Part shown: one piece after another, positions 9,915 through 59,430 of the stretch
Numbering within the stretch: position 1 is the stretch's first letter
How the letters are laid out: every line of letters starts with the position of its first letter
Assembly: GCA_019044685.2 (NCBI GenBank)
Contig: JAGTXX020000006.1
Span: 2,499,501 to 2,563,500, forward strand
From: Nannochloris sp. 'desiccata'
Lineage: Eukaryota; Chlorophyta; Trebouxiophyceae; Chlorellales; Chlorellaceae
Length of the DNA stretch: 64,000 nucleotides
Direction: 5' to 3'
The notes under the pieces: generated by a model
Databases searched by the model: none
What the model was told of the DNA's origin: nothing
Seen by the model: the letters and a program-made list of their open reading frames with translations, nothing else
Position numbers and translations under genes: made by a program

Positions 9915-12071
9915 ATGAGAGAGGCACAGACGTATATCTTCATCTGTATGTGTACCGCATTGGCAATAACAATATCTATTCCCAACGTCCATGGTGCGAT
10001 TGGTCTCGCTGGCGGTGCCGCCAACAAGACGGTGAGCTCATTATAATGGGAAAGAATGGCGAACCAATCAAACAGCAATGATTTCTATGTTAGGTAATAT
10101 AATAATATTAAGTTTGTACTCCTTATTATACAGGAATATGCAAACAACAGCGTTATAGTTCGCTTTAAATCAACTGCTCGGTCCACGTCTGTATTTGCCA
10201 GCGGTCTTCAAGCTGCCGACCCTGTGCTTTCCAGATCCCTAGCAATGTCCAGCAACATGCGTGGGGGATCTCTGTCGACTCCTTCTTCCATCTATAAACG
10301 CACCAACCTCTACAGAATTACAGACGGAAGCAGCGTGGAAAAAAAAGTAGCCGAGCTGAAAGCATTGCCGGACGTAGCCCTGGCGGAACCAAACCGTCTT
10401 GTTACAATTATGAAGACTCCTTCAGACGGACAATATATATATCAGTGGCATTTGCCTAAAATTGCAGCTCCCGTAGCCTGGGATACTGTCACTGGATCTA
10501 AACATGTTAAGGTGTGTGTTATCGACAGCGGTGCTCGTATAGATCACCCTGATCTGGCTGCCAATATTATCAAGGGGTGGAATGTTATGAAAAGTGAATC
10601 TGATCCTGAGTTTTATAATTTCAACGATACACTGGGTCACGGGACACATGTGGCTGGTCTGACAGCAGCAGTCGGCAACAACGCTCGCGGAATCTCTGGT
10701 GTTTCCTGGCAAATCGGTCTATTAATCTGCAAATTTATTTCAGACAGCGGAACAGGTGCAATTTGGGATGCTATATTCTGTATGCGATTATGTGAAGAAG
10801 AAGGTGCTTTGATTTACAATAATTCTTGGGGAGGCCTTACAACGCCCGACTCCCTTGGTGACGAAATCGCAGCATTGGAAGCTTCTGGAGGTCTATTTGT
10901 TGCTGCTGCAGGGAATAATGCTTCTAATCTAGATTTGTATCCGCGGTATCCGGCATCTTATGATTCGCCCAACCAGATAACAGTTGCCGCTACGACCCCA
11001 TCGGACAACCGAGCTGGCTTTTCTGACTACGGGCCTAATACTGTGCATATCGCCGCACCAGGGGAAGGTCTTTTAAGCACAACGCACGATGGAGGCTATG
11101 GCCAGCTGAGTGGAACATCAATGGCTACTCCGGTTGTGGCAGGTGCTGCAGCACTCTTGCAAGCCATGTCCCTCAACGCCAACGGCACGCCATTATCACC
11201 TTCTAGAATTCGCAGTATACTAATGGAAACAGTCGATCCCATGCCTTGGGGAGGTTTGTCAACTATTAGCAAAGGCAGGTTGAATGTAGCCAAAGCGGTG
11301 ATGCAGCTCAAGGCTGAGCTCGGCGGGTACACTGCCCCACCAAAGCCTGCTGCTGTGGTACCTCCAGCTCCCATGCTCCCTCAAGCCGCGCGCAATCCTC
11401 CTAGTCCACCTGCGCCCGAAATTCCTTCTTCTAATCTTAATACCACGGTATCTACCCCAGAGTGCGGGACTTCGGCTCTCCGTGGCCAGACAGCTTTCCA
11501 GTCCAGCGTTTCTAACAGTTATAATGCCAGCTACGCTTTGAATGGAGATTGCCGAAATGACATGTCGGAATATTTCTCTTCGTGCGCTGTCACCGATCCT
11601 AGTTTAAGCAACCCTTGGTGGACAGCTCCACTGCCGGAGCGGACAGACGTTGTGGCTGTCAGTATTACAACAAGAGCAGATTGCTGCTGGAATGCGATTG
11701 GAGGAGCGATTATCTATATTGGCAATGGTGCTTGGACTAGTGCTGATAGCCGGGCGTCGTTTACAGAATGTGGTAGGGTGGCAGCAGAAGGGATCCCCCG
11801 AGGCCAGCGGACAACGATAACATGTAATAGCCCTACAAAGGGATCATCCGTGGCAATTTATTTGCCTAAATTAAAGACATCTTTGATTTTATGTGAAGTG
11901 GATGTTACTTTAGCTGAAGCTGGTGGAGACAGCATTGCGTCTCTACCAAAGGCGGCAACCGCAGCGGGGGTGTCGGGACGCGGGCCCAAAGCCCAGGCCC
12001 CGGCAGTAATGAACAGTGAGCAGGGATCCGCCAAACGTAAACGCCTTCGAAGCATTTTAAGTGCAATTTGA
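9915..12071 (+). CDS. secreted subtilisin-like serine protease with C-terminal F-type-lectin-like domain (copy 1)
   Basis: Two exons, 9915-10031 and 10134-12071; 684 aa. Exon 1 encodes a hydrophobic signal peptide (residues ~1-28) and ends shortly after it. Residues ~40-120 resemble an inhibitor-type propeptide. The S8 catalytic triad is intact: Asp in CVIDSGARIDHPD (~169), His in GHGTHVAG (~207) and Ser in GTSMATPVVAG (~365), with the oxyanion Asn in AAAGNNASN. A Pro/Ala-rich linker leads to residues ~481-633. These resemble the F-type lectin (fucolectin/FTP) fold: LNGDCRNDM, SCAVTD, NPWWTAPL, ITTRADCCWNAIGGAIIYIGN, and a C-terminal LCEVDV. The tail is basic. It is probably an extracellular or wall protease. 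It is a tandem paralogue of the next gene, with the intron in the same place and phase. Confidence 0.9.
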
Positions 12072-12838
12072 CCTTGTTCCTATTACATTTCCCTCTCAAT
12101 GAAAGACAATTGTGACTACAGTTTTGGCCATCAAGGAAAAGCTCAGAGTAAATAATCGCAGCTGATTTTGGGTTGTTTTACAATAATATATTTCTAATAA
12201 CATATTTGGCATGGTCCGATCTCTTCAAAAAAGAGTAGATTGAATTTAAGTTATTGAATCTGAGCATTCGATTTTATTGAATCTGGGGTTCTTTCAGATC
12301 AAGAAGCCCCAAAAGAGATCTCAACAAAATTGGATTTTATTCCAATGCAGGACGAGGCATTTCAACTGCATTTTTAAAACATCTTTTGCCCAACTGACTA
12401 GTAGGGGACGATAGATCGATTCGGACGGTGCAGCCGAAGCCGACCGTCTGACCCCTTTTGTTTTTAACCCTATAAGCCACAACGATACCTTCATATCTAG
12501 TATTTTTTTTATATAAATTGGATTTAGAGGCACGTTGGGTTGCCATCTATATCCTCTCTACCTTCTTATAGCCATATTGCTGATACAAATCAAGTCCACT
12601 TGGAAGAGATCTTATTGTCTGGATGACTGAAAAATTTCTCTTGAAGCCCAAATCAAATAAATCAGACTCGGAGTAAAGACCCTTTCGATGTGCCTAAGTG
12701 CGACAGGACTGCGTTTTCCTTTAAGATAATTGTAGATTGGTCTCAAATCACACATTGGCATCTGTGTGAGAAGCTGCTGAACCAGCACAAATAAAAAAGC
12801 TAGAACAGAGGGACTTTCGCTTGTTTCCCCTCCTAAAC
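12072..12838. other. intergenic region between the two subtilases
   Basis: 767 bp, holding the 3' UTR of copy 1 and the promoter of copy 2. A 69-codon minus-strand frame (12337-12546) is present but has no recognisable homology, and an overlapping frame of similar length lies in the same place. I do not call a gene here. Confidence 0.5.
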
Positions 12839-14989
12839 ATGATAAGGATCAAAGAAAAGGTGCAAAGCGCACTTCTGCTACTCGCATTGCTACACATCTG
12901 CTCTGGAGCTTCAGACCGGTCAGCGGTACGTCTCTTGCCTGCCTTTTTAAAAGATTAAAAATAAAACAATACACGCTCACTACTTTCTTCGTTAATTTGA
13001 ACTAAGCGTATAAAACAAAACCATGTTATTGTCTGTCTATTGCAGGACTACGCCCCGTCACGAGTACTTGTTCGGTTTAAACCATCAGCGCCTGTCGGCA
13101 TCGTCCAACTCACCGGCCTCCAGCGAGCTGAACGCATCCCTCCCCTGGAAAAAGTTACCAGCAGACAAGCTAATGTTGATACAAATGTCCCTGACGTAGC
13201 TTTAGAAACCCGTATCTACGAAATCACTGATGGTGCGAATGTTTTATCCAAAGTTGCACAACTCCGGTCATTGCCCCATGTAGAAATAGCCGAACCTGAC
13301 TATAAAGTTCATCTCTTTAAGCTTCCTACCGACCCTGGATTCAATCGTCAATGGTATTTACCTAAAATTGGTGCCAATGTAGCTTGGGATAAGGCCACAG
13401 GGTCAAAAAAAGTCAAGGTCTGTATCATTGATAGTGGTATTCGGATGGATCACCCAGACCTTGCTGGCAATATTGAAACAGGCTGGAATGTAGTCCATGA
13501 GGACGATGTGCCCTCTGCAAATCCAAATGATCGTACGTTTAGAAATTATAATGATACGCTAGGTCATGGAACCCACGTGGCTGGAATTTTGGGAGCGATG
13601 GGCAACAATGGCAAAGGTATAGCTGGTATGTCTTGGAGAGTGAGACTTCTGGTATGTAAGTTCATAGCAGATTCTGGTTCTGGCTATGTATCAGATGCAA
13701 TTAGTTGTATGCGGCTGTGTCGTGAGAAAGGTGCACATATCTATAGTAATTCTTGGGGTGGTGTAAAATTCCAAAAAGCGCTGGAAGTTGAAATTAAAGC
13801 TATTCAAGATGCTGGAGGCCTCTTTGTATCTGCAGCAGGGAATAGCGCAGCAAATTTAGACGTTACCCCTTCATATCCTGCTTCCTTCGACGCTCCGAAT
13901 CAGATTACTGTGGCTGCTTCTGACGCAACAGATCGCCTTGCTGATTTCTCTAATTTTGGCGCCAAGACTGTCCATGTGGCTGCCCCTGGTGTGAACCTCC
14001 TTAGTACGACATCTGAAGGTGATTATGGATATATGAGCGGTACTTCTATGGCTACTCCTGTAGTGGCCGGAACAGCAGCGTTGCTACAGGCTGTGGCAAT
14101 GAATGAATTCAATAGAACTCTAACTCCGATGAGATTAAAGCGTCTTTTAATTCAAAATGTGGACAGAACTTCATGGGGACCGAATAAGTTAGTGAGTACA
14201 GGGCGTATTAATGCGGGAAAAGCAATGGCAGCAATGATTGCTGAGTTGCAAAATGGGGCTATTCCTGCACCACAACCTCCAATGCCCAAGGTGTCACCAC
14301 CATTACGAGCACCGCCAGTCAGTGTCAAGGCTCCCCCTCCCCGTTCTCCTATCGGTGCTACTACTAGCCCGCCCATTATTGGGACTGTTATATCACCTGT
14401 ATGTGGTGCGTCTGCTATTAGGGGCCGTCCTGCGAATCAATCAACTAATTTCGGCCCCAAGCGCCATGCTGGAAAGGCCGTCAACGGAAATTGCTTCAAC
14501 GACATGATTGCTCGTCCTTTTACCTGTGCTGCCACCGACCCCGCAAGCAGTTTCCCCTGGTGGACTTCATCTCTTGAATCCCCTGCTGAAATTTCAGGTG
14601 TTCGTCTTACTACTAGAAGGGAATGCTGCTGGTCATCTATTGGAGGCGCGATTGTTTATGTTGGCAACACTCCTTGGACCAATAGGAAGAACGCAACTAA
14701 TTTCACCGAATGTGGTAGAGTACCTAGCTCAGGTATCTCTGCAGGACGACGCATGACAATCAAATGTAGTAGACCTGTTGTGGGTTCTCATGTGGCGGTC
14801 TACTTGCCTAAAACAAGAACTGCGCTGGTGCTTTGTGAAGTCGACGTGATGTTGAAAAATCCAGCAGTCCCCTCTTCACCAAAGCCACCAATGGTACCTC
14901 CTTCTCTTAAGAAAGTGCTTGACCCACCTCCCAAGAATGGTATTCCTCCTCGAAATAGAAAAAGGACTCCTGCTCGACAGACAAAATGA
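12839..14989 (+). CDS. secreted subtilisin-like serine protease with C-terminal F-type-lectin-like domain (copy 2)
   Basis: Exons 12839-12925 and 13046-14989; 676 aa. Exon 1 is a signal peptide (LLLLALLHICSGAS) and, as in copy 1, ends in phase 0 before the propeptide that starts DYAPSRVLVRFKPSAPV. The triad is intact: Asp in CIIDSGIRMDHPD (~155), His in GHGTHVAGILG (~201), Ser in GTSMATPVVAGTAALLQ (~361). A proline-rich linker joins residues ~481-632, the lectin-like domain (NGNCFNDMI, TCAATDPASSFPWW, TTRRECCWSSIGGAIVYVGN, LCEVDV). The Cys pattern is the same as in copy 1. The tail is Pro/Lys/Arg-rich. The two genes are clear tandem duplicates that have diverged strongly, so the duplication is old. 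Confidence 0.9.
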
Positions 14990-43146: not shown

Positions 43147-44558
43147 TCAAGTAATAATTTTATGTAATTCTGCTCTTGCAATAGCAAAGTAGCTGATATC
43201 CCCATGTTCCACACCTGAATACCGCACAGGAATCCCATTTGAAGCTTGATCTGCTGCATTATTGCCTAATAAGGAGGGGGGTGCCCCGCCCTCACACACA
43301 GATATTGAATAGAGAGGTACGCCAGGTGCTTTCCTACTAAATTGACTATTTGCAGCGAACACATCAAAATGAAGCATCCCAACCCCATCTTTATTCACAA
43401 TACCGAGATCTACAACTTCAGAAGGCTGTAAATGGTGGAGTGGTTGCATATTTGGGAACAGTGCAAGTGCTCGGTGAACAGCTGGTTCACGGACGGTGCA
43501 GCGGGGGAGGGTTGTTTGATCTATTAAGCCTGCCCAAGGGTTTTTAGATGTAGTAGTAGTAGTAGCAATCGTAGTTGTTGTTGTGGCATCAGCAGTAGTG
43601 TTGCTGCCAGTTGATCCCCACCAAGGACTCTTTCTGCTTTCTTTGTGACTAGTTCGTTTTTCTGTGGCGGTAGCAATCGATGTCTCTCCTTTTCGTTGTC
43701 GCTTAGCTGCCCGCTCCTCTTCCTCCACTCCTTCCCCTTCCGTCAATTTTCTCTCTTTTACTTTTACTACTGATGAAGCAGAATTAGGAATAGCGGGTTG
43801 TGCGAGTCTATTGCTTTTGCTATTATATGAACTGGGTGGAAAACTCCAAATTTGAGTCGGTGACTCAGAATTTTTAACAACCCAGGTAAAAGGGTGTCTT
43901 TGCACTATATAACCCGCTCTCATAAGCTTGCAGTAGACTAGATACATATCCATAGAGACGCCATTAGCTACCATGAGTTCTTGGCATTCTTGAAGAGAGA
44001 GTAAGTGTTTACCAGAGGCAGAGGTATCCTCGAATAAAAGCAGATTGGCTCTATCAACTAAATACAACGCTTCTTCTGGGTGGAGGAATAGTTTTTTGCC
44101 CCACATAAAGCCGATGTGGTTGAAGAGTCTGCCTCGTTGAAGGACCACTTCTGCTGTGTTGTGTTGAGGTCGCCAAATAGCCGCCGCCAAGTCTTTCCTG
44201 GAGAAGAGAACCAAAGGAAAATATTTAGAGATCAGAGGGTTCAGCTTATAAAAATGCATGTGTAAAGGTCAGTGACGATGAACGAAGATTGAGGTTTCGA
44301 TGTGAGGTCAGTGACTGCTAGGTCCTGGCTGCCGCCATTTTTTTTATTTATTAATCTCAAGATGAAACAAAAGTTTAAAAGCGACATTATGGGTTCGCTA
44401 AATTCTTACCCTGCCCGTGGTAAACTCCATACATCTAATAGTTCATCAAGCTTTAATTCAAGCTCTAGGTCTCCTTGATTATCATCACCATCACCAAACA
44501 ATTCCTGTTTCTGACCTCGCCGGAAAATGGCTGCGGAAAATTTCTCGGCATCCACCAT
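43147..44558 (-). CDS. SEN54: tRNA-splicing endonuclease subunit SEN54
   Basis: Exons 44410-44558 and 43147-44197 on the minus strand; 399 aa. The N-terminal domain has the SEN54 features: ATWxP-like IWRPQHNTAEVVLQRGRLFNHIGF, the block LFLHPEEALYLVDRANLLLFED, SLQECQELM, and YLVYCKLMRAGYIVQRHPF. A Lys/Glu/Thr-rich linker precedes a C-terminal part (GMLHFDVFAANSQFSRKAPG) that fits the C-terminal SEN54 half. SEN54 is a structural subunit of the SEN complex, which cuts pre-tRNA introns. It is not a catalytic subunit (those are SEN2 and SEN34). In organisms with permuted tRNAs the same enzyme is thought to cut the permuted precursor, and such a gene lies 5 kb away. Confidence 0.82.
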
Positions 44559-49667: not shown

Positions 49668-49744
49668 TGGCAAAGTCCAATGTTACCACTACACCAATAA
49701 CGCTTAGGCTGCGTTATCCGAGAATCGAACTCGGGGCTAGACTA
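49668..49744 (-). tRNA. circularly permuted tRNA-Gly (anticodon GCC)
   Basis: Read on the minus strand, the 3' half comes first. Anticodon-stem 3' strand AGTCT (49743-49739); variable loop AGCC; T arm CCGAG-TTCGATT-CTCGG (49734-49718); acceptor 3' strand ATAACGC (49717-49711); discriminator A (49710). A 6-nt spacer GCCTAA (49709-49704) follows. Then comes the 5' half: acceptor GCGTTAT (49703-49697), TG, D arm GTGT-AGTGGTA-ACAT, T26, anticodon-stem GGACT, loop TT-GCC-A(T). The acceptor stem is 7/7 Watson-Crick, the T stem 5/5, the D stem 4/4 with one G-U, and the anticodon stem 5/5 with one G-U. The rebuilt molecule is 71 nt, the usual length for tRNA-Gly, with standard A-box (TGGTGTAGTGG) and B-box (GTTCGATTC) elements in reversed order. 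The break lies in the anticodon loop at 37/38, where position 38 (T) is present on both sides. No CCA is encoded, as in eukaryotes. Maturation would need ligation to a circle and recutting. Confidence 0.9.
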
Positions 49745-50203
49745 AATTAAATTAGCTATGTAGCATCCTGATTGACTCAGGGGGCTCGATTGACTTATAA
49801 CTGATGTGTTTTCCAGCCTTACTTAACCCCCAAAAATTTAAAATTTTTCCATTTCACAAATTTTTATGTTTTTTATCGACTTTTTTATTTCTTCGAAAAA
49901 TTTAGCGCTCTAAAAAAACTAAAAATCAATTCTGTAACACAGTAGAGCTGTTAGAACACTATAGTACTTTCTGGAGGGGATCAAAGAGCACCTGCTGCTT
50001 TTTGATTTTTTTCGCATCTAACATCAGTGAAAAATTAAAAAAATAAAAATTTACGCGCAATTACAGTGCTCCGCACTCAATATTGCTCTAGAAATAGCGC
50101 TTGACTTCTCCTGAGTGGTTATCTTCAGGTGCTTGCTGGGGTTTGAACAATTTCACTCTGTTCAAAATTTACTGTCCCCCCGAGACTGCATTTTTTCTTA
50201 ATT
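49745..50203. other. AT-rich region between permuted tRNA and LINE ORF1
   Basis: About 450 bp with no protein gene. It probably includes the 5' flank of the tRNA (minus strand) and the 5' UTR of the LINE (plus strand). The LINE 5' boundary cannot be placed without other copies. Confidence 0.45.
49767..49781. repeat. short inverted repeat upstream of the permuted tRNA
   Basis: CCTGA-TTGAC-TCAGG, perfect 5-bp arms, about 23 nt upstream (in the minus-strand sense) of the 3' tRNA half. A TATA-like TTATAAGT lies a little further upstream at 49793-49800. These may be part of the tRNA 5' flank, but this is untested. Confidence 0.35.
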
Positions 50204-51754
50204 ATGCCTCCCCGCCGTCTTGTCATCCTTACGGACCCTCCTCCCGGTCTTTACCAAGACGTGGACTTGGACTCCCACCCAATTTTGCGGGTCTCTGCTA
50301 AGGCTCGCTATGCGCTCGAGCCTCAGCACCAACGGGCTCTTTTTACCCGTGCTGTCGCCAAGGCAATTCACGCCCATATTCCCTCGGATGCCCCCTTGCA
50401 ACCGAGTGAATACCTCACAGAGCATGCTTCTTACACCACTGTTGATGGCTATATGCGTGTGGGTTTTACTATCAAGCACCCTGCGGCCGTCCCCAGCCTC
50501 GAAGCTGCCACTGCCGCCACGGGCACCCTGCCTTTGCCTGCTGAAGTTGAAGGTGGCATCACTTTTGTTGATGCGCGTGTCTCCTGGGAAAACTATTCTG
50601 CAGAATATACCCGTGAACTGATCAACGTGCCTGCCAATATTAATCAGGCTGATCTGGCTTCTTTCCTCTCAACTGACCGTCGCCGTTGCACAATTGTCCG
50701 GCAAATTTCTGGTCCCAGCAACAGCTCCCAAGAGGGCCGCCTTATTGTCAAATTTAAAGCTTCCTCTCTTGCTGATATTCCCACAGACTTCCAGCTCCCT
50801 GGTCTTGCAGGTAAAACTCACCTTATCCACGTCCGTATGCCTTCCGCTACTTGGACTGCTGATGCCATTGACCAAGACTTGTTGACTCTTACTCCCCCTC
50901 TTGTTGTCTCGTCTGCCTGGAACGTCCCTCGTCGACCTTCATCTACTTCTCCTGTCTCCCAGCCCCCTGCTAGCAGGAGCGCTCCTGCTGCCGCTCGAGC
51001 CGCCCAGCCACCTGGCCCTTCTACCGCCAAACGCTCGAAAAGAGTGCAAGTCTCTGCCCAAGAGGCCGCGGTGGAAACCAAGCGCCAAGCGGCCTTACAA
51101 AAATTGGCTGAACATGCTGCTAAGAAACGCGAACGAGAGGCAGAATCTGCTGCTATTGCCAAGGCTGCTAAGGAAGCGGCTGAAGCGAAAGCACTTGCTG
51201 CTGCTGCTGCTGCTGCGGCTGCTGGTGTCACCTCTGCCAATGGAGCCGGCCCCTCTGGACAAGTACGCACACGCTCTTCTCCTCTTTCCACTGTGGCTGC
51301 CGCTGCCAAATCAGCTGCAATTCATTCTGCTACTGAACCAGCTGCTGGACATGTTGCTGGAACCACTATTGTCACCCCGGGTGTCCATGGAATTCTTGCT
51401 GGCACCTTTGCTGGTATGGCTGGTGCTGCTACTATTGATGCTGCTGCAGCCCCTAGTGGTGCTCTTGATCTCCCACCTCTTCGCATTAATCCCGATCGTC
51501 AGGCCCGGGCAGCTCCTACTGCAGCCACATCCTCTGAGGCTGCTGCCACAACTGGATCTGAAGATGGTACGGACGACGATGAAGACTATGATCCTATGGC
51601 TGAAGACTCGGATCTCACCTCAAACGACGATGACTCCATGTCTGGCGTCAGTCTTGCTGCTGAAGATTTTGACTTGGAAGACCCTCCAATCCACTCACCC
51701 CCTGCCCCTGCTGATGGAGAAACAAATGGAGGTGCTCCTCCTTCTCAACATTAA
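50204..51754 (+). CDS. LINE ORF1 protein (possible RRM-like domain, Ala-rich coiled coil)
   Basis: 516 aa, starting MPPRRLVILTDPPPGLYQD. Residues ~145-215 (RELINVPANINQADLASFL; GRLIVKFKASSLADI) have the spacing of an RRM-like fold, as in many L1-type ORF1 proteins; this is an inference. Residues ~280-345 form a charged Ala/Lys/Glu helix (ETKRQAALQKLAEHAAKKRE), likely a coiled coil for oligomerisation. The C-terminus is acidic (EDGTDDDEDYDPMAEDSD). No CCHC knuckle is present. The expected role is to bind LINE RNA as a chaperone. Confidence 0.8.
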   Translation: MPPRRLVILTDPPPGLYQDVDLDSHPILRVSAKARYALEPQHQRALFTRAVAKAIHAHIPSDAPLQPSEYLTEHASYTTVDGYMRVGFTIKHPAAVPSLEAATAATGTLPLPAEVEGGITFVDARVSWENYSAEYTRELINVPANINQADLASFLSTDRRRCTIVRQISGPSNSSQEGRLIVKFKASSLADIPTDFQLPGLAGKTHLIHVRMPSATWTADAIDQDLLTLTPPLVVSSAWNVPRRPSSTSPVSQPPASRSAPAAARAAQPPGPSTAKRSKRVQVSAQEAAVETKRQAALQKLAEHAAKKREREAESAAIAKAAKEAAEAKALAAAAAAAAAGVTSANGAGPSGQVRTRSSPLSTVAAAAKSAAIHSATEPAAGHVAGTTIVTPGVHGILAGTFAGMAGAATIDAAAAPSGALDLPPLRINPDRQARAAPTAATSSEAAATTGSEDGTDDDEDYDPMAEDSDLTSNDDDSMSGVSLAAEDFDLEDPPIHSPPAPADGETNGGAPPSQH

Positions 51755-51756
51755 AT

Positions 51757-54700
51757 ATGCCCCTAAATGCCCTCTTGCTGCCTGGTGATGTTGCTCGATG
51801 CCCTACTTTACGGTTTGGTACCCACAATGTCCGAGGCTTGACTCTTGACAACATTCCCCGTTTTACTCAAATGTGGGATGAATTACATTTAGGAATCGTA
51901 TTTATACAAGAACATTGGATCCCCTCTGTGGTCCACTCTGTACCTTTTGCAAATAAATTTTCTCGCCGCCCGCACGGCCGTGGCTGGACTGTGTTTTGGC
52001 GCTACAAAACTACATCAATTTCTGCCTCTACTGCATCTTCTTCAACTGCTACCCCCTCTGAGGAGCTGGATGATTCTACTATTTCTGCTGGTCGCAGCAG
52101 AGGAGGCGTTGCCATAGCTATTAGAACATCCCTTATCAGAGATGGCACCGTTCGCCTCGTGGGTGACGCTGCCAGTGTCGGCCCCGAGGATGGGCGTGTT
52201 ATTTCCCTCAATATTGATTGGGCGGGTCATAAACTATCTATGGCTTGTCTTTATCTCCCAAATCATGCCCCTGAGCGTGCTCAGTTTCTTCAGGACCGCC
52301 TTGTACCCCTTGCTGCCTCTGCTGTGGCTGCTAGGCGGCAGCTGGTGTGGGGAGGTGATTTCAACTTTGTCCACAATCCGTCTTTAGATAGATTAACTAC
52401 TGTTGGAGGTGAAGCTATGGTGCCGACTGCCACTACTGAGGCTACTGCAAATGTTTGGGCTGCTCTCCCAGCTTTGGCTACTCTGGTTGACGTGTTTCGG
52501 TTACAGCACCCGACGTCCCGCCACATGACCTGGCTCCAACCTAATGGTCACTGTGGTTCTCGATTGGACCGCTTTTACACCTCCGACACTCTTTCTACTC
52601 AAGTTGTCTGCCCTTCTAACCTTCTCAGATCAGCTCTGCGTCGTTGTGTTAATGATTCTGATCACACCGTTGTGGTCTGTCACTTGGCGCCGCTGTCCCT
52701 TGAACACTCTTCCGCTTCTTCTTCTCGCCCTCCTAACGCACCTCCTCGTCTTAATATCTCTTTTATGAAAGATCCTTGTCTTTCACGAGAGTTTGAAGAG
52801 TGGCTGGACTTGAGGCTAGCAAGTCTCCCTACTACTGACGAGGCAGTAAAACGCTGGTGGCTTAAATTCAAGTCTAAAACATTGAAGTGGAAAATCAGGA
52901 GTTTGAATCGCGATTTCTTCTTCAAAAACCAACATCGTGCATCTGTGGAGGCGCTTCGTGATACATTAGCAACGCTCACTTCCCAAGTTAATGGGAACGA
53001 CACCGTCTCTATCCGAGCTGCTCTCGCTGAAATTCCGCATGTCAGGGCTGAACTGGGTCGTCTTGAGAGGGAATTAGAAGCTTTTTACCAGACTAAAACT
53101 CGTAAAGCTTGGATTCATTCCAAAGAACGCCCCTCGATCGGTCTTACTAAAATCCTTGGCGCAAGCAGACACGTCAATATCCCTGCTCTGCTTGATAGCT
53201 CTGGTACTCTCCAAACTTCTGCTGCTCGTTGTGCTAATGTAGTCATTGATTACTGGGCTGGTATCTCTGCTGCTCCTACTACCACAGCGGCTGCTCAAAC
53301 TGCCGTTCTAGCTGCTGTTGAGGCTCAAGGAGTGCCTCAGCTACAACCCCAGACAGTGCAACAACTAGGCTCGTCTGATGTTACTGAAGCTGAAATTCTG
53401 AGTACGCTACGTAAATGCAGCCCTCATACGGCTTCTGGTCCAGATGGTATCCCTATGAAGCTGTACAAGACTTTTAGGCGGGGTTTTGCCCCACTTTTTT
53501 CACGCGTGTTCACCGCCATAGGTAAGTCCGGCTCAGCGCCCCGTTCTTTCCTTAAAAGTGTCATTACCTCTATTCCTAAACCAGGAAATAGTCTATTAAT
53601 TGCAAATACTCGCCCTATTTCCCTGACTGGTACTGATTATCGCGTCCTCACTCGCGCTTTGGGCTCCCGCCTCGGTGCCGTCCTCCCGACAATCATCGAT
53701 CCGGTGCAAACGGCGTTCTTGAGAGGGCGGCACATAGGAGATACGGCTATGCTAATGCAGTTCCTGCCCGCTTGGCTCCAGCAGCATCATCGCTCTGCTC
53801 TCATGGTCTTTTGTGATTTCCGCAAAGCATACGACACCCTCGATCGCAACTTCTTGTCTGCTTTAGCCCTCAAAATGGGACTTGGTGAAGATTTTGTTTC
53901 GTGGATGAAGCTATTGCTTACTGACACTCGCTCTGCTGCCATTATTGATGGCTATCTCTCTGATTATCGTCTTCTTCTCGCTGGAGCCAGACAGGGCTGT
54001 CCGCTCTCTCCGCCGCTCTACCTCCTAGTTGCTCAAGCAGCTTTGATGTGGCTGAGAGAGAAAGGCTTTGGTGTCGAGATTGATGATGAGACTCTTACTG
54101 CATTACAACACGCTGATGACACCAAAGTGTTGCTGAATGGCCCTGAAGACATCCCTGCCTTCCTCGATGCTATGACCATTTTTGCCCAAGCCTCTGGCCA
54201 GCACTTGCAGCCTGCCAAGACACGTCTTCTCTTCCTAGGCACTCCTCCAGAGCAGCCTCTACCTGAGTCTATTCACGGTTTGCCAGTAGTCTCTTCTGTC
54301 ACAGCGTTGGGCTTGACATTCTCTCAATTCACGGGAGCGATCTCGGTGGACTGGGTGGAGTTGCTAACGCGAGTGCACTCTAAAGTGGATATGATTGTTA
54401 AATGCAAACTCTCTTCCTTTGGCAGAGCATTTGCTATCAATAGCTATGCCCTTTCCAAGATTTTATACTTTGCTCAATTCACTGGGTTGCCTGAGGGTCG
54501 TGACCTCCACTACCTTGAGCGGCTGCTTCCTGCAGCTGTAGATCGCGATATCTGCCTCCGGCTACCCCCATGGATCTCTACCTCATCGGGTCCCAGCCAA
54601 AGAAGGTTTTCAGGAATCTCCAGAGCTCTGATGCCTGCTCACCCTCGCTTTGGTGGTCTTGGACTGCTTCCGTTGCCTGAGCACGTCAACTCTAGAATAG

Positions 54701-56319
54701 CTTGGTGGGCCTTGCGCCTGATTACTGGTTCTGCCACTACACCATGGATACGCGTAGCTCGATCTGTTCTCTCGCACCTTCTATCCACAGTCAAAAGCGA
54801 TCCTGGACAATATGGTGTCGCTGTGCCTTTCCCATGTCCTCAGCTGGTCCTGTTGACTCGCCCTGCCACTAGCCTCGCTGCTCATCTAGGTGTCGCAGAG
54901 GTTCCTGTTGTTCTTGAGAGATTGTGCTCTGCGCTCAGAGCTTTACCGCGTCCTTCAATCGTTGCTCCAGTGCCAGCTGGTCCTTGGTGTGCTGCTCTCC
55001 CTCTCTGGAGTAACCCTTTGTTGTTGGATAACGGAGCCGTCGCCTTGGAGCACAGCCAACGATGCCCTAATCTTGGGACTATTGCCTGCCCTGCTATTAT
55101 TACTTTCGGAGATTTGCTGCGCCTAAGATTGGATCTGGAGACTTGGGCTCCTGGTCAATATGAGCAGCGAAGGCAGTTTCTGAAATTCCCTGGCCAACAT
55201 GGCATCCTCTCTCCCATTTCTCCACATGTAGCTGCTACTACTCGCTCTCTTTCTGATCTCAAGTTATACGTCGATGTAGCAATACACCATGTGTGTACTC
55301 TTCTTCCTGAAGGATGGCTGGAAGCTGCTCAGGGCACCCCTCTCCAGCCCATCACTACTGTTACGCCGCCAGTTGTTTTATACGACGGCTCCACTGTAGA
55401 GATGGCTGGTGCATCCACAACAGCTGCTGCTATTGCTGAAGCATCTTCTACATCTGCTGCTGCTGCCGAAATGCTGATTTCTTGCATGGGATGGAGGATT
55501 GGCCGCCGCACTATTAACTTGGCATCTTTCCAAGTGAAAGTTGGCACTATCCTCCAACTTGCTAGTCGCCCCGCTCCTCAGGTAGCACCTATGAGCTCCT
55601 TCTCGGTACTGGTATCTCCCACTACTGAGCCTTCTCCAGGTGCTGTACAACGCCTGCTCTCCAGAATGTGGTCTCGCCCCTGTGATGGCCGCAGCCTTGA
55701 AGTGCTTTGGCGGTTGGTTCTTAATGGCATTCCTACTGCTGACAGCCTCCCTCTTCTACAGTCACGCCAGTGTGGCTGCGGACTTGCAATTGGACCTACC
55801 CGTATCCATCTCTATCACCAGTGTGCTATTGTACAGCCAACATGGCTCGCGGTGCAACAGCAATTGTGTGATGACTTTTCTATTCCAACACCTGGGTTAC
55901 TGCAGCGCCGTCATATTTGGATGGGTATTAGGCCACACCCTAGGCTTCATCAAGGTATTTGGGACATTGTAGCAATCAAATTACTTGCTGCCTGCGAATC
56001 AGGGCGCAAGAATTGGTTTGACCGGGTTCTTAAACTTCAGCATGCTACTGTTTCAGCTGCTCGTCGCAGAGGCGGCGGTAGAGGTCGTGCTCGCTCCTCT
56101 CGTACTACTGGCTCTATCCACCGTCCTCCTATGGCTCCTGGACCTGCAATGATAGCTTCAGTCAGTCAAGTTGTCTTGGCTGAATTCTGGTCTGGCCTTA
56201 CTGAAATTGCTTCTCTTGGTGTCTTACCGCCTGCTTGGTTACAGGTGGTTCCCCTCAACCACCCCTTTTTGCACCCTGATAGTACTAGATCTCATTGGGT
56301 CGTCTCTTCTTATGAATAA
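51757..56319 (+). CDS. LINE ORF2: AP-type endonuclease plus reverse transcriptase
   Basis: 1520 aa. Endonuclease residues ~1-310: FGTHNVRGL, FIQEHWIPS, WGGDFNFVHNPSLDRL and the catalytic NDSDHTVVVCHL. Reverse transcriptase ~560-850: ASGPDGIPMKLYK, SIPKPGNS, NTRPISLTGTDYRVLTRALG, FCDFRKAYDTLDR (first catalytic Asp), GARQGCPLSPPLYLL, and ALQHADDTKVLL (catalytic DD, with His in the usual Tyr/Phe position). A C-terminal Cys-Cys-His-Cys element (QCGCGLAIGPTRIHLYHQC) matches zf-RVT. No RNase H domain is obvious. The ORF has no stop or frameshift, so this copy may be active. Start TAAATATG: ORF2's ATG is 2 nt after the ORF1 stop. Confidence 0.93.
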   Translation: MPLNALLLPGDVARCPTLRFGTHNVRGLTLDNIPRFTQMWDELHLGIVFIQEHWIPSVVHSVPFANKFSRRPHGRGWTVFWRYKTTSISASTASSSTATPSEELDDSTISAGRSRGGVAIAIRTSLIRDGTVRLVGDAASVGPEDGRVISLNIDWAGHKLSMACLYLPNHAPERAQFLQDRLVPLAASAVAARRQLVWGGDFNFVHNPSLDRLTTVGGEAMVPTATTEATANVWAALPALATLVDVFRLQHPTSRHMTWLQPNGHCGSRLDRFYTSDTLSTQVVCPSNLLRSALRRCVNDSDHTVVVCHLAPLSLEHSSASSSRPPNAPPRLNISFMKDPCLSREFEEWLDLRLASLPTTDEAVKRWWLKFKSKTLKWKIRSLNRDFFFKNQHRASVEALRDTLATLTSQVNGNDTVSIRAALAEIPHVRAELGRLERELEAFYQTKTRKAWIHSKERPSIGLTKILGASRHVNIPALLDSSGTLQTSAARCANVVIDYWAGISAAPTTTAAAQTAVLAAVEAQGVPQLQPQTVQQLGSSDVTEAEILSTLRKCSPHTASGPDGIPMKLYKTFRRGFAPLFSRVFTAIGKSGSAPRSFLKSVITSIPKPGNSLLIANTRPISLTGTDYRVLTRALGSRLGAVLPTIIDPVQTAFLRGRHIGDTAMLMQFLPAWLQQHHRSALMVFCDFRKAYDTLDRNFLSALALKMGLGEDFVSWMKLLLTDTRSAAIIDGYLSDYRLLLAGARQGCPLSPPLYLLVAQAALMWLREKGFGVEIDDETLTALQHADDTKVLLNGPEDIPAFLDAMTIFAQASGQHLQPAKTRLLFLGTPPEQPLPESIHGLPVVSSVTALGLTFSQFTGAISVDWVELLTRVHSKVDMIVKCKLSSFGRAFAINSYALSKILYFAQFTGLPEGRDLHYLERLLPAAVDRDICLRLPPWISTSSGPSQRRFSGISRALMPAHPRFGGLGLLPLPEHVNSRIAWWALRLITGSATTPWIRVARSVLSHLLSTVKSDPGQYGVAVPFPCPQLVLLTRPATSLAAHLGVAEVPVVLERLCSALRALPRPSIVAPVPAGPWCAALPLWSNPLLLDNGAVALEHSQRCPNLGTIACPAIITFGDLLRLRLDLETWAPGQYEQRRQFLKFPGQHGILSPISPHVAATTRSLSDLKLYVDVAIHHVCTLLPEGWLEAAQGTPLQPITTVTPPVVLYDGSTVEMAGASTTAAAIAEASSTSAAAAEMLISCMGWRIGRRTINLASFQVKVGTILQLASRPAPQVAPMSSFSVLVSPTTEPSPGAVQRLLSRMWSRPCDGRSLEVLWRLVLNGIPTADSLPLLQSRQCGCGLAIGPTRIHLYHQCAIVQPTWLAVQQQLCDDFSIPTPGLLQRRHIWMGIRPHPRLHQGIWDIVAIKLLAACESGRKNWFDRVLKLQHATVSAARRRGGGRGRARSSRTTGSIHRPPMAPGPAMIASVSQVVLAEFWSGLTEIASLGVLPPAWLQVVPLNHPFLHPDSTRSHWVVSSYE

Positions 56320-56625
56320 ATAGTGTTCAGACTCTTTTTTCTCTTTCTTTCTTTCTTTCCATTCATCATTTTACATGATTAGTTAAGTTCTCAGCAAGGT
56401 GTGGGGCTTCATTGTCGATGACGGCTGTGGGTTAGAGGTCATGTCTGGTGGCGTTTTGCGATCCCCTGGGACTCCGGTGTCCTTTGGCTTATAGTATCGA
56501 TGTGCAGTTCCCTTCTTCTCCTTGTTTTCCATCCTCCTTTTCCCATTTTGATGCTGCTCTCTCCTTATCTATACATTTCTGGTCCATTGACGTTGTCTCG
56601 TTGACGGCGGCAGCTCACCGGTGAG

Positions 56626-58911
56626 GTGGGTCGGGCTATATGTAAAAATCTCAGCTCAAATTTTTTAAAATGGATGAAACTCCTTCACCGCAACACAAAA
56701 GCGTGTGCTGTCGTCCGAGGTTACCTCGGCGACGCGGCCAGCATCCTTGCTGGAGTACGACAAGGCTGCCCTCTTGCGAATATGCTCTTCTCCTTCGTTA
56801 CTCACGCCTTGATTCTCTTTTTAGAACCTCTAGAAATTGGTATCAAAATCAATAATAAAGTGGTTCCAAATACTTTATTCGCCGACGATTTACGAGCTCT
56901 TGCGGCTCTCTTTGAGAACTACCAATGCCCCAAAGCAACACAGTTACTCAACGCTCTGGTCATTTTTGGAAACGCCTCCAACTTACGTCCCTCTGTACCA
57001 AAGTTGGAGTGCTTGTTGCTTGGAGCTATTCCAGCAACTACTCCTTCCACTGTCACCAGCATCGGCAATTTTAAGTTAGTACCGCTAGCGCGCTCCCTTG
57101 GCCTACAGCTCCCTGAAGGTACAGCCTTTCCTTCAAACTCATGGGATCTTCTGGCAACCAAATTTGACAAGAGATGCAAGCTTATCAGTCAATGTGGCTT
57201 ATCCATGTTTGGCAGAAGCAGAGCTATCTCTAGCTACAGTAATTCAGCTCTCTACTATGTAGCTGAACATGCCCCACTTCCCACTGCGGCTGTTCTCAGT
57301 AGACTTTCAAAAACTACCTCCAACCTCATTAACCGAAATGTCGGTCCAGTAGCTCCAGGACGTGGTTTCTATGGGATTAAACCAGCAGCACTAGCTGGTC
57401 CACCAACAAAAGGCGGCTTCGGCCTAATTCCTATTGAATCACACATAGTTGCTCGTCATGCTAAAGTTGGTCTCAGGTTATTATTTGATCCAGCTGATGT
57501 TACTTGGATCCATCTTGGTCGTCAACTCCTCGCAACCACATGTCCTTTCCGTGACCATGGTGGTGGCAATTCGCGTCTGGCGGCTGTGTCCTTCCCGACC
57601 TCGGTTGACCCAGCAACTTTACCTAGTCCTCTTTCTTTCCTTTTGAAAGCGCTTTACCAATTACCCCCCCTGATTGTCAATCCCTCCTTAGCTCCAGGGC
57701 CCTGGTGTTATGGAGTACCTCTGTGGAATAATAAATTCATTGTCGCCACCAACCCCGCCACCGGCACTTCTCTTGGCACAAGTTTGAATTCTTTAGATTC
57801 CGCAGCTGGATTTTACTCTACAGTGTCAACATTACATACAATTGGTGATGCATTAACTTGCTATGGTAGACTAAGCGCTATTCCTCTTAATTTAGCAACT
57901 AGTCAAACACACGCGTTGTACCGAGCAGTTGCAAATGACTGTTTTGGACCAGAAACTTCTGGAGTTTGGACTAACCCTAATAGCAGTGGTTTACCTGAAC
58001 TATCAATTGCAAAACCTCGCCTCTTTGCTCTATTAAAATCAATTCGACCAGATTGGCTGAGCGCTGCTCATTCTCTCCTTGCCGAAGACGAACACGCACC
58101 TGTTCCAGCTCCAAAACCATCAATGGACGATGCTTTATCTATTCTCCTTGGTAATCTTGGCTGGATGCAAAATCAAAAATTCATTCCAACAGCTGAGTAT
58201 ACAGTAAAATGGGGCACCCGACAACATTTTGAGACCACGGCGGCGTTCACCGCTCAACTCAACAAGTTTAAAAATTTCACTCATATTGCTACTCCTGTTG
58301 GAAATGACACCACACGCCTTCAAAGGCTTTATTCTGCTTTTAAACGAGCTTGGTGTATCCGTTGGGATCGCAAGCACACGGAGATATTATGGCTCTTGGC
58401 ACATGATGCTCTGCCTACAGCAGCACGCCTTCACACAACAGACACGTGCTCCTGCTGCCCTACTATCACCACCCCAGGCCTTCTTCACCACTTCTGGTCT
58501 TGCTCTGTATCTGAAGCTATTCGAAATGAATTTTGGCAGCAGCTCAGCTCCTTAGAAGGCTTCTCTCAAAGTACCCTCCGCCGCCACCACCTTTGGCTCT
58601 TGGAATGTCCGCTTCCCTCCTTCTACCAACCGCTCTGGCCCGTGGTTGCTCTGGCTGCCCTCAATGCAATGGATTCTGGACGTAGATCTCTATTTCGTTT
58701 ATCACGTAACAGCTCTACAGCATCCATCCCCACTGTCGAACGAGCGGCTATCCGCAATGGCATTGCCGCTTTTTGGAAGCTCCTTGCCCAATTTGCAGCC
58801 AACCCACAAGCCCCTCAACGATGGTCCTCTCTCCCTGAAGACCATCCAATCATCCACTGGAACTCTACTGCAGCAAAACTTGAGCTGTCACCCAGGCTAT
58901 TGCAGCCATAA
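56626..58911 (+). pseudogene. 5'-truncated LINE ORF2 of a second family
   Basis: An open frame of 761 codons beginning in the middle of a reverse transcriptase. SSNFLKWMKLLHRNTKACAVV is the palm segment that in the neighbouring LINE is FVSWMKLLLTDTRSAAII. It continues with LAGVRQGCPLANMLFSF, the catalytic TLFADDLRALA, and a C-terminal C-x-C-C...H...C zf-RVT (CSCCPTITTPGLLHHFWSC). The endonuclease, the first RT Asp and any ORF1 are missing. This is the standard outcome of incomplete target-primed reverse transcription. The remaining frame has no stops, so insertion may be fairly recent. Confidence 0.88.
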
Positions 58912-59430
58912 ATTCACCTCATCTTCACCAGCACCGTTATTTTTCCGCTTTTCATTTTCTCTTTTACTACTTTTTCCCTCTCTTTTCCTCCCTTTTTTCT
59001 TCATCCCTTTTTCTACATGTCTTCTTGGTGCTTTCTACTAGCCTCCGCATCTCGGACTAGCAGATGTTTTTATTTTTTGGTTGAAAACTTTCAGTTACCG
59101 TATCACCGCTGCTGGCATTTTCTTTTTCCTTTGTTAACCAGCAGAATTATTGTGACCTAAATTGGTGCCTATTAATAGTTCATTTCACGTTGGTTTACTT
59201 TTCTTATGTCAGACTTTGATTAACTGTTTCGTCTCGCCTCTTTTCTGTCTCCAGGTAGCCTATTCATATGTCAACGCTCCAGAGGAGCTTAATCATGTAA
59301 CCCCTTCAGTTCAGTTCAAATTTTTTTGGTTTACAGCTTTAATTTGCCGTCTAAACTGCCTTCTTCCATTTAATATTGATATACTGCGGCATTGGTCGAC
59401 TAAGAATTGAACTGGGAAGGCTTGAGTCGA
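56626..59430 (+). mobile_element. 5'-truncated LINE insertion directly after the intact LINE
   Basis: Includes the truncated RT ORF and a following pyrimidine-rich region up to roughly 59430. The right boundary is approximate because no poly-A or target-site duplication was found. It shares strand and overall design with the upstream element, but the proteins are clearly of a different family. Confidence 0.6.

Follow-up and report, generated by a model that had tools for sequence, protein, structure and literature searches.

The gene at positions 49744–49668 of the window, the 64,000-nucleotide stretch of Nannochloris DNA analysed here, is supported by its sequence as a nuclear gene for tRNA-Gly(GCC) that is circularly permuted at 37/38 (type II), so that the 3′ half of the tRNA precedes the 5′ half. 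It is very probably a working gene and belongs to a set of at least 20 permuted tRNA species in this trebouxiophyte genome. The parts of the locus, in the order of its reading, are the following:

49745–49750, minus strand: end of the leader; bases −3 to −6 were compared with anticodon-loop bases 32–35
49744–49710, minus strand: tRNA-Gly(GCC) 3′ half, positions 38–73 (sequence; covariance model match of 59.3 bits; identical on contig C13)
49709–49704, minus strand: intervening spacer GCCTAA, 6 nt, between the acceptor ends (sequence)
49703–49668, minus strand: tRNA-Gly(GCC) 5′ half, positions 1–37 (sequence; covariance model match; ARAGORN on the joined molecule)
49650–49646, minus strand: T5 run followed by GC, probable Pol III terminator (sequence)

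The 3′ half contains the 3′ strand of the anticodon stem, the variable loop, the T arm with the B box, the 3′ strand of the acceptor stem, and discriminator A. The 5′ half contains the 5′ strand of the acceptor stem, the D arm with the A box, the 5′ strand of the anticodon stem, and the anticodon GCC. When joined, the two halves form a molecule of 71 nt. Direct reading gives an acceptor stem paired in seven of seven positions (GCGTTAT/ATAACGC), a D stem of 4 bp with one G-U pair, and an anticodon stem of 5 bp (GGACT/AGTCT), also with one G-U pair. The T stem has 5 bp, the T loop is TTCGATT, and the anticodon loop TTGCCAT contains U33 and the anticodon GCC. The covariance model, ARAGORN, and the bases as read agree on a canonical cloverleaf with U8, G18G19, U33, and TUC. 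The earlier note had described the reversed order of the halves with a 6-nt spacer, and its coordinates are correct to the base; the four stems, the anticodon loop, the T5 terminator, and the reversed order of the A and B boxes that it listed can all be read in the sequence. Because there is a T at position 38 and another T directly after position 37 in the trailer, the 37/38 junction is indistinguishable from a 38/39 junction by sequence alone.

R1, a covariance model for tRNAs in permuted order, was derived from five other permuted tRNAs of this genome together with six ordinary ones that had been permuted in silico; the Gly gene was excluded. In the 64-kb window R1 matches the Gly gene with a score of 59.3 bits (E = 1.2e-18, E-values of the tool being rough), and the second-best match has 7.6 bits. 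Loci of ordinary tRNAs in this genome score no higher than 21.4 bits with R1; six of these tRNAs, in permuted form, belong to its training set. No tRNA is detected in the window by ARAGORN, nor does Rfam (cmscan) match anything there at gathering score, whereas the joined 71-mer is identified by ARAGORN as tRNA-Gly(gcc). A reading of the locus as an ordinary or intron-containing tRNA gene was rejected on these two results and on the order of the halves. The scores agree with the statements of the earlier note that standard searches miss such genes and that a chance match is very unlikely; the permutation-aware search and the search of the joined sequence, which it had proposed as checks, both recognise the gene.

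One BLASTN-type search of the 21.55-Mb genome with the joined 71 nt found two places, the window and C13:218747–218824. In both copies the halves are reversed, and the copies are 100% identical. When C13:200001–240000 was compared with the window, the segment C13:213940–240000 was collinear with it over two blocks (99.53% and 99.42%), with a retroelement between them. The C13 copy therefore looks, from its flanks, like the other haplotype and the two copies look allelic; an independent second gene on C13 was rejected since the flanks are collinear with the window at 99.4–99.5%. Nannochloris is named among diploid assemblies in an excerpt of PMC12633428. The comparison of the alleles is uninformative on selection, as about 0.4 differences are expected over 77 nt at 0.5% divergence. 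The retroelement is a non-LTR element that forms a 9.45-kb insertion at 49864–59316, 119 bp upstream of the tRNA 3′ half. It is flanked by the 7-bp repeat AAATTTG, is absent on C13, and leaves the tRNA unaffected. Its open reading frames are:

50204–51754: retroelement ORF
51757–56319: retroelement ORF with endonuclease and reverse transcriptase (RT) domains
56626–58911: further retroelement ORF, RT-like by eye

Elsewhere in the window, which has a GC content of 45.6%, two neighbouring ORFs of 615 and 649 aa within 10224–14989 have similar translations, subtilisin-like by eye, and may represent a tandem duplication. The window also encodes a trehalose-phosphate synthase, which matches a protein of Nannochloris sp. 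'desiccata' with 100% identity across 69% of the query.

The permuted copy could be a dead relic that arose by tandem duplication and is silent, with the real Gly(GCC) gene located elsewhere, and the earlier note had named many ordinary Gly(GCC) genes and a poor covariance score among its marks. An ordinary gene could be missed, as RF00005 scored 63 of 825 candidates; however, neither that scoring nor the BLASTN-type search with the joined sequence found one, the covariance score is high, and the four stems, the invariant bases, and the terminator are all intact. Moreover, the single-anticodon species Trp, Tyr, Cys, and Phe show the same permuted layout. We therefore consider the relic improbable, and the Gly gene is better explained as functional. 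The codons GGT and GGC make up 379 of 9123 codons in 15 raw ORFs of the window, so a Gly(GCC) tRNA is needed.

A genome-wide census counted 20 permuted tRNA species and nine ordinary ones; the census is incomplete and the ratio provisional, because R1 detects 37/38 junctions only and some ordinary genes, those whose introns are unusual, may have escaped detection. The permuted species are Gly-GCC, Gly-TCC, Ala-TGC, Ala-CGC, Arg-ACG, Arg-TCG, Arg-CCG, Ile-AAT, Ile-TAT, Lys-CTT, Tyr-GTA, Cys-GCA, Phe-GAA, Glu-CTC, Trp-CCA (three loci), Ser-AGA, Ser-GCT, Leu-TAA, Leu-CAA, and Thr-AGT. The ordinary genes are Val-TAC, Gln-CTG, Met-CAT, Ser-GCT, Ser-TGA, His-GTG, Pro-TGG, Asp-GTC, and a gene at C2:299748, which ARAGORN calls Pro(cgg) and we read as Ser-CGA. 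Among the candidates scored with RF00005, only ten places lie above the gathering score, or nine once alleles are merged, and four weaker matches are the 5′ halves of permuted genes. The search for ordinary copies covered Gly-GCC alone.

Loci for the census were collected with a B-box pattern and D-arm patterns, scanned with R1, and then read. The B-box screen, which is neutral to the order of the halves, used one pattern and gave 91 sites, compared with 109 in the reversed control; all 91 fall in loci scanned with R1, ARAGORN, or both, or in known tRNAs. Thirteen of these sites are in permuted genes and seven in ordinary ones, and of the latter two are alleles and one (L019) is doubtful. The D-arm sites inspected were, by pattern, 26 of 26, 2 of 2, 3 of 3, 5 of 11, and 2 of 11, and for a pattern with 65 sites the loci already collected and L148. 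Two of the D-arm patterns gave fewer sites than their reversed controls (65 versus 122, and 11 versus 37).

Besides Gly-GCC, 14 permuted species lie outside the training set of R1, and 13 of them match the model at 34.2 bits or more. Arg-CCG reaches 19.2 bits, because its spacer has 73 nt and the scanned locus ended short, and its identity comes from reading and ARAGORN. Thr-AGT was identified by its R1 score of 67.7 bits and by reading. ARAGORN called all 21 joined molecules it was given (19 species, without Thr-AGT) as tRNAs with the expected anticodons; for Leu-TAA and Leu-CAA the joined molecule was without its true position 38 and a portion of the long variable arm, and for the third Trp copy the call began at base 2. 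In the joined molecules both Ala tRNAs have G3:U70, Tyr has C1:G72, and Cys has U73, which are the expected identity elements of these tRNAs. The spacers of the permuted set are 5–73 nt long.

Several loci met in the census deserve separate mention. The three permuted Trp(CCA) genes (L099, L100, and L101 at C8:321685, 551564, and 552570) are near-identical; the third, with bases inserted in its T-arm and acceptor region, is possibly degenerate. For the ordinary Ser(GCT) gene (L051 and L052 at C6:2472079 and C13:296400), a check on L051 showed no T4 within 30 nt; this gene could be a relic or an insert from an organelle, and the permuted Ser(GCT) gene (L092) has a T-run. The locus L156 (C6:412908) was rejected as a tRNA. 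Four places (L005, L109, L110, and L141) carry a repeated element with the B-box-like sequence GGTTCGAGTCC and near-identical flanks, which by reading is not tRNA-like.

Considering the census as a whole, we lean towards the view that the permuted layout is the default for nuclear tRNA genes in Nannochloris. Most isoacceptor families, including the sole carriers Trp, Tyr, Cys, and Phe, would then be encoded in permuted form only, protein synthesis would depend on the circularisation of tRNA, and a retained TFIIIC-type factor would have to recognise A and B boxes in reversed order, unless it is bypassed.

The structure of the permuted set was compared in an alignment of 21 R1 matches with 19 distinct rows (A4), which is without Thr-AGT and Arg-CCG. 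Pairing is found in 96.0% of 396 cells, compared with 59.9% in shuffled and 40–46% in slid alignments, and two-sided changes occur in 145 cells, compared with 43.1 in shuffled ones. Pairing is complete (100%) in the acceptor stem and weakest in the anticodon stem (91.3%), where mismatches were read in Ala-TGC and Cys. A4 was fitted to the model and five of its rows come from the training set, so that it is biased towards structure; nevertheless, 100% pairing of the acceptor stem across spacers of 5–52 nt is well above what the fitting bias would be expected to give. The aligned genes indicate that the structure of the permuted set is held by compensatory change.

In the bulge-helix-bulge (BHB, here hBH) register, bases 32–35 pair with leader bases −3 to −6. 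In 19 permuted genes, 48 of 76 such pairs are formed, compared with 37.0 when the leaders are swapped (P = 0.00026, or about 0.002 with all eight offsets counted as tries), and none of the seven other offsets is significant in these genes (P ≥ 0.28). With Thr-AGT added, the 20 genes form 51 of 80 pairs, compared with 38.8 when swapped (P = 0.0001). The Gly gene forms three of the four pairs, one of them G-U, and by eye its trailer can also pair with the anticodon stem in a hairpin (ACTTT/AAAGT) that competes with this helix. Pairing between leader and trailer alone is no better than with swapped partners (mean −3.12 versus −3.04 kcal/mol, in a test with two leaders misplaced); the mean rank of the leader–trailer duplex is 0.49 without the anticodon loop and slightly better, 0.44, with it. 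The same register was checked in four of the six introns of ordinary genes, leaving out L007 and L019 and placing the Pro-TGG intron one base off the call of ARAGORN. The 32:−3 pair is present in all four, which form 3, 4, 1, and 2 of the four pairs. At the level of the permuted set, the genes thus appear to have a 37/38 junction with a BHB-type (hBH) motif, as described for the permuted tRNAs of green algae (PMC3978253, section 8).

A run of at least four T residues follows within 30 nt in all 19 permuted and eight of nine ordinary genes, compared with 15% of random 30-mers, and Thr-AGT brings the count to 20 of 20 permuted species. The run is followed by GC in nine of 19 permuted and six of nine ordinary genes, compared with 1% of random sequences, and the GC after the T5 run of the Gly gene is the same as in several other tRNA genes of the genome. 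None of the 21 permuted cores contains a T4. Arg-CCG has a single T4 between the start of its 3′ half and the locus end, and this T4 lies in the trailer. Because the T-runs are shared and none lies within the cores, permuted and ordinary genes seem to belong to one class of Pol III unit. There is no upstream enrichment of TATA-like boxes, which are present in two of 19 permuted genes, compared with 8.5% of random 70-mers; one of the two is the TATAAG about 54 bp upstream of the Gly gene. By eye, a motif like ACACCCATTTGCGATC(GA) follows the T-run at the window locus, L059, L079, and other tRNA loci.

The distribution of T-runs also bears on whether the locus consists of two half genes, or of a split tRNA the halves of which are transcribed apart and joined in trans. 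The halves are indeed separate in the genome, but the spacer is just 6 nt long in the Gly gene and 5–73 nt in the set, and with no T4 in any of the 21 cores and a T4 or longer run within 30 nt after them, one transcript is the simpler explanation; we regard the split arrangement as very unlikely. The possibility that the locus resembles a tRNA by chance or is a fragment of a tRNA-derived repeat, which the retroelement 119 bp away could suggest, can be dismissed given the out-of-sample E = 1.2e-18, the finding of only two copies, which lie on collinear contigs, and the presence of the tRNA on C13, where there is no retroelement.

A single transcript of a permuted gene would require processing, and the window encodes a candidate component of the machinery 5.4 kb from the permuted Gly tRNA:

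43147–44259, minus strand: ORF with the N-terminal domain of Sen54, a tRNA-splicing endonuclease subunit (PF12928, E = 1.2e-12, 48.2 bits, cut-off 24)

Judged by its domain, this Sen54-type subunit is expected to be part of the machinery that processes the permuted Gly tRNA. Two matches to PF01974 are located elsewhere, at C6:1157389 and C1:82990. A B-block TFIIIC-domain protein is encoded at C1:137888 in a 988-aa frame (E = 1.1e-8), with a weaker match on C4; this identity is provisional because two of the matching control genomes are bacterial. In the pathway described for algal permuted tRNAs, the pre-tRNA is spliced to a circle, the spacer is removed, and CCA is added (PMC3978253, section 6). 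In the Gly gene, RNA polymerase III would produce a single transcript that stops at the T-run, both arms would be cut at 37/38 by the Sen endonuclease, and a tRNA ligase would join the ends to give a circle. The GCCTAA spacer would then be excised by RNase P and tRNase Z, and after the addition of CCA the mature product would decode GGU and GGC. Nannochloris probably makes much of its tRNA via circular RNA.

Permuted tRNA genes are already known but had been regarded as rare: a 2014 review counts 34 of them from six algae and one archaeon, and published spacers range from 1 to 74 bp (PMC3978253, section 4). No report of permuted tRNAs in Nannochloris was found in the literature searched, a scope that lies outside the genome paper (Sanders et al. 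2022), and no trebouxiophyte reports were found in it beyond Auxenochlorella. If true, the presence of at least 20 permuted species would show that standard annotation can miss most of the tRNA genes of an algal lineage. Nannochloris would provide a culturable alga in which to study the reasons for the spread of permutation, the ability of Pol III and TFIIIC to work with reversed internal boxes, and whether tRNA can be made mainly through a circular intermediate; its genes may also serve as a training set for permuted-tRNA searches in other Chlorellales.

Nannochloris is a trebouxiophyte, neither a prasinophyte nor a red alga. Permuted tRNA genes have been reported in another trebouxiophyte, Auxenochlorella UTEX 250-A, and according to excerpts of the reports (PMC12636532 / PMC12633428) their 5′ and 3′ halves are likewise reversed and standard searches are likewise incomplete. 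In Cyanidioschyzon merolae, 11 of 43 tRNA genes are permuted (PMC3978253). This alga resembles Nannochloris in gene layout, in the incompleteness of standard searches, in having a T-run downstream of the 5′ half but not within the spacer, a pattern that the Gly gene shares, and in its reported Sen2/34/54-type subunits. In contrast, the junctions of C. merolae are at several positions, whereas our model covers 37/38 only; most of its genes have TATA-like upstream boxes, which are present in two of 19 genes and not enriched in Nannochloris; and its TFC1/TFC3 homologues were reported as not identified, whereas Nannochloris encodes the provisionally identified B-block TFIIIC-domain protein. Type II (37/38) genes are known from the prasinophytes Ostreococcus and Micromonas and from the Bigelowiella nucleomorph (PMC3978253, Table 1), a table in which Gly(GCC) is absent. 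They share with the Nannochloris genes the 37/38 junction of hBH type and have spacers of 5–64 bp, compared with 5–73 nt here. However, those genomes contain two to six permuted genes each, mostly Ser, Cys, Leu, and iMet (PMC3978253), whereas Nannochloris has 20 permuted species, and it is this apparent genome-wide majority that is the surprising part.
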